From the NCBI RefSeq assembly GCF_007741535.1, contig NZ_CP036525.1:6758001-6822000 (forward strand): 64,000 bases of DNA. The letters are read 5' to 3'. Made by a program: the position numbers and the translations under genes. Source of the DNA: Rubripirellula lacrimiformis (GTDB lineage Bacteria > Planctomycetota > Planctomycetia > Pirellulales > Pirellulaceae). Below, piece by piece: positions 9,675-64,000 of this stretch (its first letter is position 1; each line of letters opens with the position of its first letter). A model generated the notes under the pieces. It did not search any database. It was not told the DNA's origin and saw nothing but the letters and a program-made list of their open reading frames with translations.

Positions 9675-9731
9675 CCCCTCTCCCCCACGTTGGATGCGAG
9701 CAGAACTCGCATCCAACGCGGGGGAGAGGGG
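9675..9731. repeat. 26-bp near-perfect inverted repeat (hairpin)
   Basis: The left arm 9675-9700 and right arm 9706-9731 are complementary at 25 of 26 positions around a 5-base loop (CAGAA). The outer part of each arm is a CCCCTCTCCCCC / GGGGGAGAGGGG block and the inner part is GTTGGATGCGAG / CTCGCATCCAAC. It sits between two convergent 3' ends, the typical place for REP-like palindromes, and could act as a bidirectional terminator. Confidence 0.85.
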
Positions 9732-9860
9732 AGGCAGGCTTCGGGGGAAGCGAGTGTGGAGAAAAGGGGAGGCAGGCTTCGGGGGAAGCGAGCGTGGAGA
9801 AAAGGGGAGGCAGGCTTCGGGGAGGCAGGCTTCGGCGGAAGCGAGCGTGGGAAAGGATGC
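9731..9860. repeat. 38-bp direct repeats with internal truncation
   Basis: A unit beginning GAGGCAGGCTTCGG and continuing through GAAGCGAGCGTGGAGAAAAG starts at 9731, 9769 and 9807, so the period is 38. A shortened copy starts at 9822 after only 15 bases. The repeats abut the right arm of the inverted repeat. The unit itself contains CTTC/GAAG complementarity. It looks like a non-coding tandem expansion. Confidence 0.8.
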
Positions 9861-51406: not shown

Positions 51407-52204
51407 ATGGGCGTTCGCTTTGCATGCCACGCATGCCAAAAGCCGCTGCACATCAAGCAGGAACTGGCCGGACGGCGTGGCGTATGCCCCCAATGCTCGG
51501 TTCGATTCCGAATCCCGACGATCGACAGCCCTACGTCGACGCCGCTGGATACGCCTGATGCGAACTCGCAATCTGATGCGAACTCGCAATCCGATGCGAA
51601 CTCGCAATCCGATGCGAATTCGCAATTCGGCGGGCCAGAGTCCGGGCAACCGGCATCCCCCCAAACTGCGGCCGCGGTGGCCGATTCCGCATCCGCGACC
51701 AGCCGCCCATCGGCCTCCAGTCATCCGGGCTCCAGTCATCCGGCCGCGGCAAGCAAGATCGGCCTGATCGCCAATGACCCGGACGCCAACTGGTACATCC
51801 GCCCACCCAGCGGCGGACAATACGGACCGGCCGATGGCGATTTGTTGTTGCAGTGGATCGGGGAAGGCCGCGTGGCGGCAACGGCGTTGATCTGGCGTGA
51901 CGGTTGGCCCCAATGGCGCGAAGCATCCGAAGCGTTGGCCGAAGTCGCGTCCACATTGCCGGTCGTGGCCGAACCATCGCCGCGTCTCGGCAGCGACTCC
52001 AATCCAGCGGCCGCCGCCGGTGCGTCCAAGGCCCCAACCGCTACGGCAAGCCTCGATAGTACGGCATCGGTTGCGGGCCAATCCGGCATCGGCGCGGCTC
52101 GTCGATCGCGTTCGATGCAACGAATCTTTTGGATCGGACTGCTATCCTTGGTGGCGATCGTCCTGGTTGGCGTCCTGATTTATCTGGTCACTGGATCGGC
52201 CTAA
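51407..52204 (+). CDS. Zinc-ribbon and GYF_2 membrane protein
   Basis: 265 residues. The N-terminus is a zinc ribbon (Cys7/Cys10 and Cys27/Cys30, ACHACQKPL and CPQCSVRF). A DANSQS repeat (four units) and a Ser/Ala-rich linker follow. A GYF_2/DUF4339 domain lies at about 120-175 (WYIRPPSGGQYGPADGDLLL; AATALIWRDGWPQWREA). A membrane helix (IFWIGLLSLVAIVLVGVLIY) ends the protein. GYF_2 domains bind proline-rich partners. The function is unknown; it is likely a membrane-tethered adaptor. Confidence 0.8.
   Translation: MGVRFACHACQKPLHIKQELAGRRGVCPQCSVRFRIPTIDSPTSTPLDTPDANSQSDANSQSDANSQSDANSQFGGPESGQPASPQTAAAVADSASATSRPSASSHPGSSHPAAASKIGLIANDPDANWYIRPPSGGQYGPADGDLLLQWIGEGRVAATALIWRDGWPQWREASEALAEVASTLPVVAEPSPRLGSDSNPAAAAGASKAPTATASLDSTASVAGQSGIGAARRSRSMQRIFWIGLLSLVAIVLVGVLIYLVTGSA
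51557..51628 (+). repeat. Four 18-bp coding repeats (DANSQS)
   Basis: Units begin at 51557, 51575, 51593 and 51611, each about GATGCGAACTCGCAATCC. They encode DANSQS four times with only third-position or final-codon changes. Confidence 0.9.
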
Positions 52205-60316: not shown

Positions 60317-60569
60317 CAGGATCAGGGATACGAGGGGGCTTGGGGGGCTAGCTGCTTTGCGATCGGTTCTGTCGCGGCGGCATGCTGGACCGAATCGCAT
60401 TCTTTGACAAGCGGGCAGCGATCGTGTTTGCCAGCCAGCCCACATCGCCACGGGCCCCCGACAGAGCCAAATTTTGCATTTTGCCGCCCAATGCACCATA
60501 GTCTTACCGCAGGCGACAACATGAAACCGCTACTTGATCCGACAACCTGAATCCAGGACGAATCGCACG

Positions 60570-61820
60570 ATGAGCACCGATGACCGAGTGGACTTTGAAC
60601 CGATCGAAGGCGAAACGGAAGCCGCCCCGCCCGAAGTCTATGCCGCCAACCTGATTGAATGGGCGATTGAACGACACGCCAGCGACCTGTTTGTTTCCGA
60701 TTCCGAACACTGCGTCATCGTGGCAATCCGGCGACTTGGAAAGATTGAACGCGTCCGCCAACTGGCTCGCGCCTATGGCAAGCGATTGCAGGGACACCTG
60801 CGGGTCATCGCGAACGCGGATGCCGGCGAAACGTTGCGTCCGTGTGATGGCCGCGGCGTGCTGACGACACCCAACGGAAACACGGTGGACGTCCGGCTCA
60901 GCAGCCTGCCGACTCTGTACGGCCAAGACGTTGCCGTCCGGCTGTTCGACCCCGTCCGCGGTGCTCGATCGCTCGACAATCTTGGATTCGACCCGGAGGA
61001 ACTCGCGGTGATCCAAGATCTGATCCACCGGCCTTCCGGGTTGGTGCTGGTCGCCGGCCCGGTTGCCAGCGGCAAATCCAGCACACTGTATTCAGCAATC
61101 CAAGCGCTCAACGACGGCACTCGCAAGATCCATACGCTCGAGGACCCGATCGAACATTCGCTGCCCGGCGTGATGCAGACGCAGGTGAACCTGAAAGCCG
61201 GGCTGGATTTCGCGGACTTGTTGTCTGCCGTTCTTCGCCATAGCCCGGATGTCATCATGGTTGGCGAGATCCGAGACTCACGCACCGCATCGACGGCGGT
61301 CCGGGCGGGTGCCAGTGGCCAATTGGTTTTGGCGACCATCCATGCGAAAAGCAGTGCCGAAGCGATCGACGCGATGCTGCAATACGACACCAAACCAAAG
61401 TTTCTGGCCGGGGCATTGATCGGCGTCATCAATCAACGCTTGTTGCGGCAACTGTGCCCACGCTGCCGAACCCCGGTGCATCAGGTTGACTTGGATATCG
61501 GCGAACGGATTGGATCGCGATTGGACAATCGACCGCCCCGTCTGTTCGAAGCCGTCGGCTGTGACGAGTGCTTTGGTGCCGGCTTTGCATCCCTGGCCTG
61601 CGCCCCGGAAATCATGCGAATCGATCGCGCACTGGCCGACGCGATCGGCAACAGCGCATCGGCGCAAGAACTGGAATCGCTCGCCGTCCAGCGCGGCATG
61701 CTGTGCCTTGCCGAGGTGGTCGCAGCCAGGGTCTTGCGAGGCGACACAACCGCCTTCGAAGGCAATCGCAGCGTCGCCGATCCGCTACTAGCCAACCTAG
61801 CCGCAGTCGCCCAAGGCTAG
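60570..61820 (+). CDS. Type II/IV secretion-type ATPase (GspE/PilB-like), orphan
   Basis: 416 residues from ATG 60570. The protein starts directly with the N2-like domain (IEWAIERHASDLFVSDSEHC). Walker A reads GPVASGKSST at about 162, the Asp box LEDPIEHSLPGVMQTQVN follows, then Walker B VIMVGEIRD near 227 and the His box. A C4 zinc motif of GspE type (CPRC near 296 and CDEC near 331) is present. Typical PilB/GspE proteins are about 550 residues with an N1 domain, missing here. No pilus or secretion genes are nearby. It powers filament assembly or DNA/protein transport at the membrane; partners are elsewhere. Confidence 0.88.
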   Translation: MSTDDRVDFEPIEGETEAAPPEVYAANLIEWAIERHASDLFVSDSEHCVIVAIRRLGKIERVRQLARAYGKRLQGHLRVIANADAGETLRPCDGRGVLTTPNGNTVDVRLSSLPTLYGQDVAVRLFDPVRGARSLDNLGFDPEELAVIQDLIHRPSGLVLVAGPVASGKSSTLYSAIQALNDGTRKIHTLEDPIEHSLPGVMQTQVNLKAGLDFADLLSAVLRHSPDVIMVGEIRDSRTASTAVRAGASGQLVLATIHAKSSAEAIDAMLQYDTKPKFLAGALIGVINQRLLRQLCPRCRTPVHQVDLDIGERIGSRLDNRPPRLFEAVGCDECFGAGFASLACAPEIMRIDRALADAIGNSASAQELESLAVQRGMLCLAEVVAARVLRGDTTAFEGNRSVADPLLANLAAVAQG

Positions 61821-61849: not shown

Positions 61850-63245
61850 GTCCGCCCAAGCCCAATCGTTTCACCACGCGGGCAACGCCCCTCGCGCACC
61901 CGCAACCAAACGCGCGGGCACGCCCAAACCCAATCGTTTAACCGCGTGGGCAACGCCCCGCGCGTCCCCGCAGCAAAACGCGCGGGCCGATGGCCACACG
62001 GCAAGACAACAGCGCACCACCCAAGACCCAATCGTTTCACCGCGTGGGCAACGCCCCGCGCGTCCCCGCAGCAAAACGCGCGGGCCGATGGCCACGCGGT
62101 TAAACGACAGCGCACACCCCGAGACCCAATCGTTTAACCGCGTGGGCAACGCCCCGCGCGTCCCCGCAACCAAACGCGCGGCCCGATGGCCACGCGGTTA
62201 AACGACAGCGCACACCCCGAGCCCCAATCGTTTAACCGCGTGGGCAACGCCCCGCGCGTCCCCGCAGCCAAACGCGCGGGCCGATGGCCACGCGGTTAAA
62301 CGACAGCGCACACCCCAAGACCAATCGTTTCACCGCGTGGGCAACGCCCCGTGCGTCCCCGCAAACAAACGCGCGGGCCGATGGCCACGCGGTTAAACGA
62401 CAGCGCACACCCCAAGCCCCAATCGTTTAACCGCGTGGGCAACGCCCCGCGCGTACCCGCAGCCAAACGCGCGGGCCGATGGCCACGCGGTTAAACGACA
62501 GCGCACACCCCGAGCCCCAATCGTTTAACCGCGTGGGCAACGCCCCGCGCGTCCCCGCAACCAAACTCGAGGCCCGATGGCCACGCGGTTAAACACCAAC
62601 GCACCACCCAAGACCCGATCGTTTAACCGCGTGGGCAACGCCCCGCGCGTCCCCGCAGCAAAACGCGCGGGCCGATGGCCACGCGGTTAAACGACATCGC
62701 ACACCCCAAGCCCCAATCGTTTAACCGCGTGGGCAACGCCCCGTGCGCCCCCGCAGCAAAACGCGTGGGCGATGGCCACGCGGCAAAACACCAACGCACT
62801 ACCCAAGCCCCAATCGTTTAACCGCGTGGGCAACGCCCCGCGCGTCCCCGCAACCAAACGCGCGGGCCGATGGCCACACGGTTAAACGACAGCGCACCAC
62901 CCAAGACCCAATCGTTTAACCGCGTGGGCAACGCCCCGCGCGTACCCGCAGCCAAACGCGCGGGCCGATGGCCACGCGGTTAAACGACAGCGCACACCCC
63001 GAGCCCAATCGTTTCACCGCGCGGGCAACGCCCCGCGCGCCCCCGCAGCCAAACGCGCGGGCCGATGGCCACGCGGTTAAACGACAGCGCACACCCCAAG
63101 CCCAATCGTTTCACCGCGTGGGCAACGCCCCGCGCGTACCCGCAGCAAAACGCGCGGGCCGATGGCCACGCGGTTAAACGACAGCAGACCGCCCAAGCCG
63201 ACTCGTTTCAGCGCGTGGGCAACGCCCCGCGTATCCCCCTGGGCG
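61850..63245. repeat. Array of about 98-bp palindromic units
   Basis: Units begin at 61864 (68 bases, truncated), 61932, 62030, 62128, 62226, 62323, 62421, 62519, 62617, 62715, 62812, 62910, 63007, 63104 and 63201 (partial), so the period is 97-98. Each full unit starts TCGTTTAACCGCGTGG and, 28-45 bases later, ends with its reverse complement CCACGCGGTTAAACGA. Inside is a second inverted repeat, CCCGCGCGT / ACGCGCGGG. A spacer of about 21 bases (CAGCGCACACCCC-type) follows. The units differ by a few bases. Confidence 0.92.
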
Positions 63246-63275: not shown

Positions 63276-63305
63276 AAGCCGGCGGTGAATGATCACCGCC
63301 GGCTT
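63276..63305 (-). terminator. Intrinsic terminator of rpoC
   Basis: AAGCCGGCGGTGA pairs with TCACCGCCGGCTT around an ATGA loop, a perfect 13-bp stem. On the minus strand it is followed by a T-rich tract (TTATTTTTTGTTTG), 30 bases after the rpoC stop. This is a classic rho-independent terminator. Confidence 0.92.

Positions 63306-63334: not shown

Positions 63335-64000
<666 letters not shown>

Follow-up and report, generated by a model that had tools for sequence, protein, structure and literature searches.

The array between the gspE-like and rpoC genes

We analyzed a stretch of 64,000 nucleotides (the window; positions 6758001-6822000 of the single 8,542,491-base contig) from the genome of Rubripirellula lacrimiformis (8.54 Mb; Pirellulaceae). 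Near one end of the window, between a gene for a GspE/PilB-type ATPase and a gene that we take to be rpoC, we found an array of 13 full units with a truncated unit at each end (61865-63240; period 97-98 bp), as shown in Table 1. The assignment of rpoC follows from its recognised sequence and its conservation, and the first-pass annotation used the same name; no Pfam match was obtained for this 3΄ end frame, and its best named matches were those of Rubripirellula and Rhodopirellula. The open reading frames agree with the convergent arrangement of the two genes given in that annotation.

Table 1. Features of the array, its neighbours and one example unit (positions in the window)
Feature	Position	Strand	Basis
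GspE/PilB-type ATPase gene, flanking	60534..61820	+	ORF; PF00437, E 1.1e-83
Truncated first copy, without right outer arm	61865..61918	+	profile 28.5 bits; next unit after 68 bp
13 full units, REPIN-like inverted doublets, period 97-98	61933..63181	+	Tandem Repeats Finder, unit starts, profile 57-76 bits
Example unit, left outer arm (TCGTTTAACCGCGT)	62228..62241	+	pairs with 62290-62303, 14 bp
Example unit, left mini-hairpin GGGC-AAC-GCCC	62242..62252	+	4 bp, 3-nt loop
Example unit, left inner arm	62253..62259	+	pairs with 62272-62278, 7 bp; 12-nt loop between
Example unit, right mini-hairpin GGCC-GAT-GGCC	62279..62289	+	4 bp, 3-nt loop
Example unit, right outer arm (ACGCGGTTAAACGA)	62290..62303	+	pairs with left outer arm
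Example spacer	62304..62324	+	sequence
Terminal left half-element	63203..63240	+	profile 21.3 bits
3΄ end of rpoC (presumed), flanking	63335..64000	-	ORF

The array of about 14 units of 98 bp, as initially described, is real. Tandem Repeats Finder reported a period of 98 with 13.5 copies and 91% matches (61923-63238), together with a separate 68-bp row from 61853 that represents a degenerate first copy, and a profile search of the window gave 15 non-overlapping matches, all within the array and none elsewhere in the 64 kb. The first unit-to-unit spacing was 68 and the following ones were 97 or 98, and the mean identity among the units was ~0.91. Between the array and rpoC, a perfect 12-bp hairpin, AGCCGGCGGTGA/TCACCGCCGGCT, followed by a few T residues, was read by eye at 63277-63304 and looks like the rpoC terminator. 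The window also contains two other tandem repeats, one of 18 bp x 3.9 (51557-51626, within the ORF at 51407-52204) and a short one of 38 bp x 2.5 (9727-9822).

Each unit consists of two half-elements in inverted orientation. The example unit reads, in order, TCGTTTAACCGCGT, GGGC-AAC-GCCC, CGCGCGT, a 12-nt loop, ACGCGCG, GGCC-GAT-GGCC, ACGCGGTTAAACGA and a spacer; the spacer had been put at ~21 bases, and was 21-22 nt at locus L127. The first-pass annotation had read the unit as a nested palindrome, and its outer and inner arms are indeed present, although they measure 14 and 7 bp rather than 16 and 9 bp. The description as a nested palindrome only was incomplete, because a 4-bp mini-hairpin separates the outer and inner arms of each half, and a single strand is therefore able to form a four-armed cross. 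The cross of the example unit leaves no unpaired base at the junction, and in a tandem run each half-element can pair with its neighbour on either side. At most other loci, the right mini-hairpin is GCCC-GNT-GGGC, compared with GGCC-GAT-GGCC in the window, which is a paired change.

We computed the folding energy of one window unit and compared it with those of shuffled sequences. The RNA fold reached -50.1 kcal/mol, compared with -32.1 on average for the shuffles (z -5.9), and the DNA fold gave a z of -7.4; with both parameter sets, the minimum-energy prediction was an extended hairpin interrupted by small internal loops and not the cross. As a fold common to the family, the extended hairpin was rejected, since its positions were paired in 54.6% of cases, compared with 88-96% for the cross. 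The proportions of paired cells in the cross were 89.8% for the outer stem, 95.5% and 95.8% for the mini-hairpins and 88.0% for the inner stem, as determined from 271 distinct arm pairs in 408 units (R. lacrimiformis 344, genome G042 45, genome G232 19, with no loci of genome G021), whose arms were chosen for their resemblance to a consensus, a choice that favours pairing. Both sides had changed in 22 cells of the outer stem and 2 of the inner stem; the left mini-hairpin had no such cell and the right one had six, all of which represent an exchange of C-G for G-C, and the window array has the exchanged form. The first-pass annotation had proposed compensatory changes in the stems as a check; the outer and inner stems were 88-90% paired, but double changes were few within genomes. 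The covariation obtained from these genomes alone is consequently weak, and the case for the cross rests on diverged relatives.

Distribution of the unit and orientation of the arrays

A search of the whole genome and of related genomes, also suggested at first pass, found the unit at many sites in R. lacrimiformis. BLAST gave 176 matches with the array as query and 146 with a single unit, and a profile search (≥15 bits) over 96 genome regions covering 1.6 Mb of the 8.54-Mb genome detected at least 51 clusters with 430 units, from 1 to 21 per cluster. These totals include five further clusters (21 units) from 58 stretches of 20 kb each (1.16 Mb in all) that were chosen in the intervals separating known arrays. 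We agree with the initial remark that the number of head-to-tail copies, 14, is high. None of the clusters overlapped a called gene, and the clusters are thus extragenic according to our home-made gene caller, which missed the RAYT gene itself. Relative to the adjacent genes, units occur in either orientation. In R. lacrimiformis, 26 of 48 clusters were located between convergent genes, 18 between tandem genes and 4 between divergent genes, whereas the background for convergence was 139 of 736 neighbouring gene pairs (regions of R. lacrimiformis and G042, array sites included); in G042, the proportion was 9/20. The unit family is accordingly enriched between convergent genes.

When 60 genomes, that of R. 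lacrimiformis among them, were searched with a single unit, five matched, namely R. lacrimiformis, G021 and G011 of the same genus (one match in G011) and G042 and G051 of the same family (two matches in G051). The unit was not found at the rpoC loci of other genomes (80 loci, E up to 1). Three of these 80 loci (L011, L012 and L013) contained the convergent rpoC-gspE pair, with gaps of 235, 82 and 93 bp and no repeat, compared with a gap of 1514 bp in R. lacrimiformis. At L033:6812-7054, shortly after rpoC in another planctomycete, there is a different tandem repeat of 91 bp with 2.7 copies. In G021, the first look gave 433 repeat candidates, and nine loci (L139, L144, L147, L150, L153, L156, L159, L162 and L165) contained mostly one or two units each.

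We compared the bases around the doublets within and between loci. Spacer identity was 0.83 within loci (32 loci) and 0.47 between them, and loop identity was 0.85 within loci (34 loci) and 0.51 between them. Spacers and loops are thus alike within a locus and unlike between loci, which suggests that a doublet and its neighbouring bases are amplified in place. Some pairs of loci had spacers in common (L110/L112, 0.95; L102/L122, 0.86), and to judge from such sharing, some arrays may have seeded others.

Array orientation was also compared between the replication arms, with the terminus placed by the GC skew of sampled regions at 4.05 Mb in R. lacrimiformis and 3.3 Mb in G042. In R. lacrimiformis, the far arm contained 23 plus and 7 minus arrays and the near arm 8 plus and 13 minus (p 0.0086), including the near-symmetric arrays L107 and L132; at L107:4758-6645 and L132:4914-6707, units score nearly equally on either strand, and the orientation is therefore uncertain. 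This p value went from 0.0003, with the terminus assumed at 3.3 Mb, to 0.049, with it at 4.6 Mb. In G042, the corresponding counts were 13+/0- and 1+/6- (p 0.00018). The p values of both genomes are after the fact, because the pattern was noticed before testing, and clusters that share a spacer are not independent in these counts. G232, which was looked at afterwards, gave 7+/1- and 9+/4- (p 0.61), with a noisy GC skew and with clusters merged by eye from rows that covered at least 60 of the 98 bases of the query (shorter rows were left out). The three genomes combined gave p 4.6e-5 (Cochran-Mantel-Haenszel test). These results are suggestive of a link between array orientation and replication arm in two of the three genomes. 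In P. fluorescens SBW25, tandem REP arrays are described, in the accessible part of the report, as facing opposite ways on the two sides of the genome (PMC3116915).

A RAYT gene inside an array of the unit

The first-pass annotation had raised REP/BIME elements as a candidate while pointing out that the window lacks a RAYT transposase. No Y1 match was found in the window, as stated, and a search of the genome for RAYT (Y1-HUH) genes, which that annotation recommended, yielded one inside an array of the unit. Five Y1_Tnp matches were obtained in R. lacrimiformis, and the weakest (5222435-5222599), below the Pfam cut-off (21.6 of 23), belongs to a 204-residue RAYT frame at 5222195-5222806 that is single copy in the genome and has 3 units upstream and 9 downstream, all of one array. 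The other four matches, at three places, were rejected as the source, as the three surrounding 12-kb stretches contained no unit. At L093:946-1261, the RAYT open frame extends upstream, in frame through repeat units.

Against the NCBIfam model of the REP-associated tyrosine transposase, the protein scored 46 bits (cut-off 80). A protein search returned 1529 relatives at E 0.001 or better, and many of the 120 relatives listed are named RayT by their source. H102 and H104 (HUH), Y172, N176 and P177 were invariant in 35 aligned relatives; the tyrosine motif is YVxENP, that is, Y-x-x-x-N-P, and the W motif is W[ATN]. A structure model (pLDDT 82.4) matched ISDra2, the RAYT-REP complex 4er8 and IS608 in Foldseek, at E values from 1e-4; the TM-scores, normalised to the query, were near 0.4-0.46.

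We then compared the sequences around RAYT genes in relatives. Among 396 genomes of the order, R. lacrimiformis included, 57 had a RAYT match at E 1e-10 or better, and 32 RAYT loci, a subset of the listed matches, were examined. A repeat was present both upstream and downstream within 400 bp at 31 of the 32 loci, compared with 7 of 32 mismatched pairs, which share a repeat because a tag such as TCGTTTAAC is common to loci. The sole exception was L239, with only 159 bp available upstream. A cross-shaped fold was detected beside 18 of the 32 loci (on both sides in 9) and, by the criteria used, was absent beside the other 14; the controls gave 0/192 for shuffles and 0/60 for 400-bp windows at least 800 bp away. 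These criteria (3-bp mini-stems and higher score limits) were set after the repeats had been inspected, and the controls were run anew; the initial search with 4-bp mini-stems gave folds on both sides at 6/32 loci, compared with 3/320 for shuffles.

The letters of the RAYT-flanking folds diverge widely, and the shape is kept. GTTTA or TAAAC was present in 20 of 27 folds. The GT[AG]G tag was found at none of the 108 hairpin feet of these 27 folds; the feet in R. lacrimiformis were GCGT, CACG and CGCG. CnGA was observed at 8/108 feet, all in four relatives and none in R. lacrimiformis, and CGTC, the alternative tetranucleotide of REP feet, as read from the listed feet, was among the feet of four relatives and not of R. 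lacrimiformis. Genome G232, which belongs to another genus and consists of a single contig, has a RAYT gene with a 72% identical product inside an array of the unit family, with a longer loop, and in this genome as in R. lacrimiformis, the gene and the units are on one strand. The unit family is thus linked to a RAYT gene in R. lacrimiformis and in a second genus.

No close RAYT relative was found in two genomes that carry the repeat, G042 (one contig) and G021 (best scores 11 and 19 bits), which indicates that the repeats persist without one. One or two units were present in 14 of the 20 clusters of G042, compared with many long arrays in R. lacrimiformis; this comparison gives only a hint that arrays grow while a RAYT is present, because queries and sampling differed.

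Origin of the arrays and comparison with known systems

The RAYT genes inside arrays, the repeat-flanked RAYT loci and the cross folds beside them point to a system similar to REPIN/BIME-RAYT. The candidate raised at first pass has accordingly been borne out by inverted doublets that recur throughout the genome, by their enrichment between convergent genes and by the RAYT gene inside one array. We consider it likely that the window array consists of mobile elements in tandem that resemble REPINs but are a distinct, cross-shaped type, and that were spread by a cognate RAYT encoded once, inside another array. From the sequences, we infer the RAYT as the mover of the unit, as well as the way in which the arrays would grow. 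The RAYT would recognise hairpins on single-stranded, probably lagging-strand, DNA and would transfer one doublet to a new intergenic site, where slippage, unequal exchange or the renewed insertion of circular single strands would turn the doublet and roughly 16-60 nt alongside it into a local tandem array.

An alternative is that the units are passive tandem repeats, spread and expanded by replication slippage and recombination alone, the RAYT gene having simply landed in one of the arrays. Indeed, arrays can grow in tandem with a locus-specific spacer without any transposase, and the repeat occurs in G042 and G021 with no close RAYT relative. However, slippage leaves the dispersal to over 50 clusters unexplained, the RAYT gene is found within arrays in two genera, and 31 of 32 RAYT loci, diverged ones included, are flanked on both sides; we therefore regard this explanation as improbable. 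Slightly less probable still is the possibility that a host function at gene ends (convergent transcription stop, mRNA 3΄ protection or the relief of supercoils at gyrase sites) keeps the arrays and that mobility accounts for their origin only. The strong folding of the unit and the 26 of 48 clusters between convergent genes would fit such a function, although convergent gaps may simply be the safest place for insertion. The repeat is moreover absent at the window site in three syntenic relatives and, at the search threshold, from 19 of 21 genomes of the same genus, which argues against a conserved function at this site.

A source of structured RNA was among the initial suggestions. Genes of such an RNA would account for the stable RNA folds, but no Rfam family was matched at curated thresholds and the units face either way with respect to the genes beside them, and we consider this reading very improbable. 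The 29 Rfam matches obtained at a loose threshold were all to microRNA hairpin models, far below their cut-offs, and were discarded as generic hairpin matches. Least probable of all is an assembly artefact: assembly can miscount the copies of such arrays, and the assembled sequence alone was examined, but the units of the window differ from one another, as the first-pass annotation had already argued from differences of a few bases, the array edges are degenerate, and arrays are also present in two other single-contig genomes.

We compared the mobile, RAYT-associated elements proposed here with systems described in the accessible parts of PMC6006769, PMC3733652, PMC3116915, PMC8266576 and PMC11588811. 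As in the REPIN/BIME-RAYT systems (REPtrons) of Pseudomonas and E. coli, inverted palindromic doublets are present in many extragenic copies (PMC3116915, PMC6006769, PMC8266576), and a single-copy Y1 HUH transposase gene is flanked by the element; ordered tandem arrays with flanking sequence are on record there as well. The parts of a REPIN-RAYT system are present except the GT[AG]G foot. The absence of this tag, the unit foldable as a four-armed cross with two mini-hairpins, the long arrays with locus-specific spacers and the suggested link of orientation to replication arm are unusual for such a system, although the REPs of subclass 2.6 and class 3 are also described as lacking GT[AG]G (PMC6006769). 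Arrays reach 21 units here, whereas the SBW25 paper gives at most 4 REPINs per ordered cluster and 12 in REP tandem arrays.

The motifs of this RAYT fit no subclass in the published table. Its Y-x-x-x-N-P and HUH motifs are those of TnpA-Y1 class 2 (TnpA-REP), and its W[ATN] resembles the W[TA] of TnpA-Y1 class 3, which is described as mainly planctomycetal, with 'atypical' high-copy flanking structures without a GTAG foot (PMC6006769). In contrast, the tyrosine motif of class 3 is YV[VI][AENY]EQ, compared with YVxENP here, of which N-P is invariant, and its foot is CnGA, compared with GCGT and C[AG]CG in R. lacrimiformis (PMC6006769). Because its tyrosine motif is that of class 2 and its W motif resembles that of class 3, the protein, as judged by motifs, was filed in neither class. 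TIRtrons (TIRYT) are similar in that longer inverted repeats unrelated to GTAG REPs flank tyrosine transposase genes, some of these repeats being double palindromes that are repeated in the genome, but the accessible part of that report describes no Pirellulales case and no cross-shaped fold (PMC3733652). The IS200/IS605 elements (IS608, ISDra2) share the transposase fold and the dependence on hairpins, and are reported to use single-stranded DNA of the lagging strand (PMC6006769); unlike in those elements, the gene here is single copy, and multiple copies exist of the non-coding doublets only. Among the open-access titles and abstracts listed, none dealt with this unit family in Planctomycetes.

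The copying of REP elements is described as still poorly understood (PMC8266576). It is conceivable, if rather unlikely, that this Pirellulales RAYT lineage takes the whole four-way DNA cross as its substrate, with a dimer grip, excision as a circle and reinsertion. If so, a RAYT dimer would grip both mini-hairpins of a doublet, as IS200/IS605 enzymes do the left and right ends, and the doublet would be cut out of the lagging-strand template as a circle of single-stranded DNA and would insert again next to or within copies already present, which would explain both the long one-way arrays and their orientation by replication arm. The locus-specific spacers of the very long arrays may record founding events. 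In a RAYT lineage without the GTAG guide, the choice of the cleavage site should differ, and the cross-shaped unit, the long arrays, the complete genomes with and without a RAYT and the possible arm bias would offer direct tests of the single-strand transposition model.
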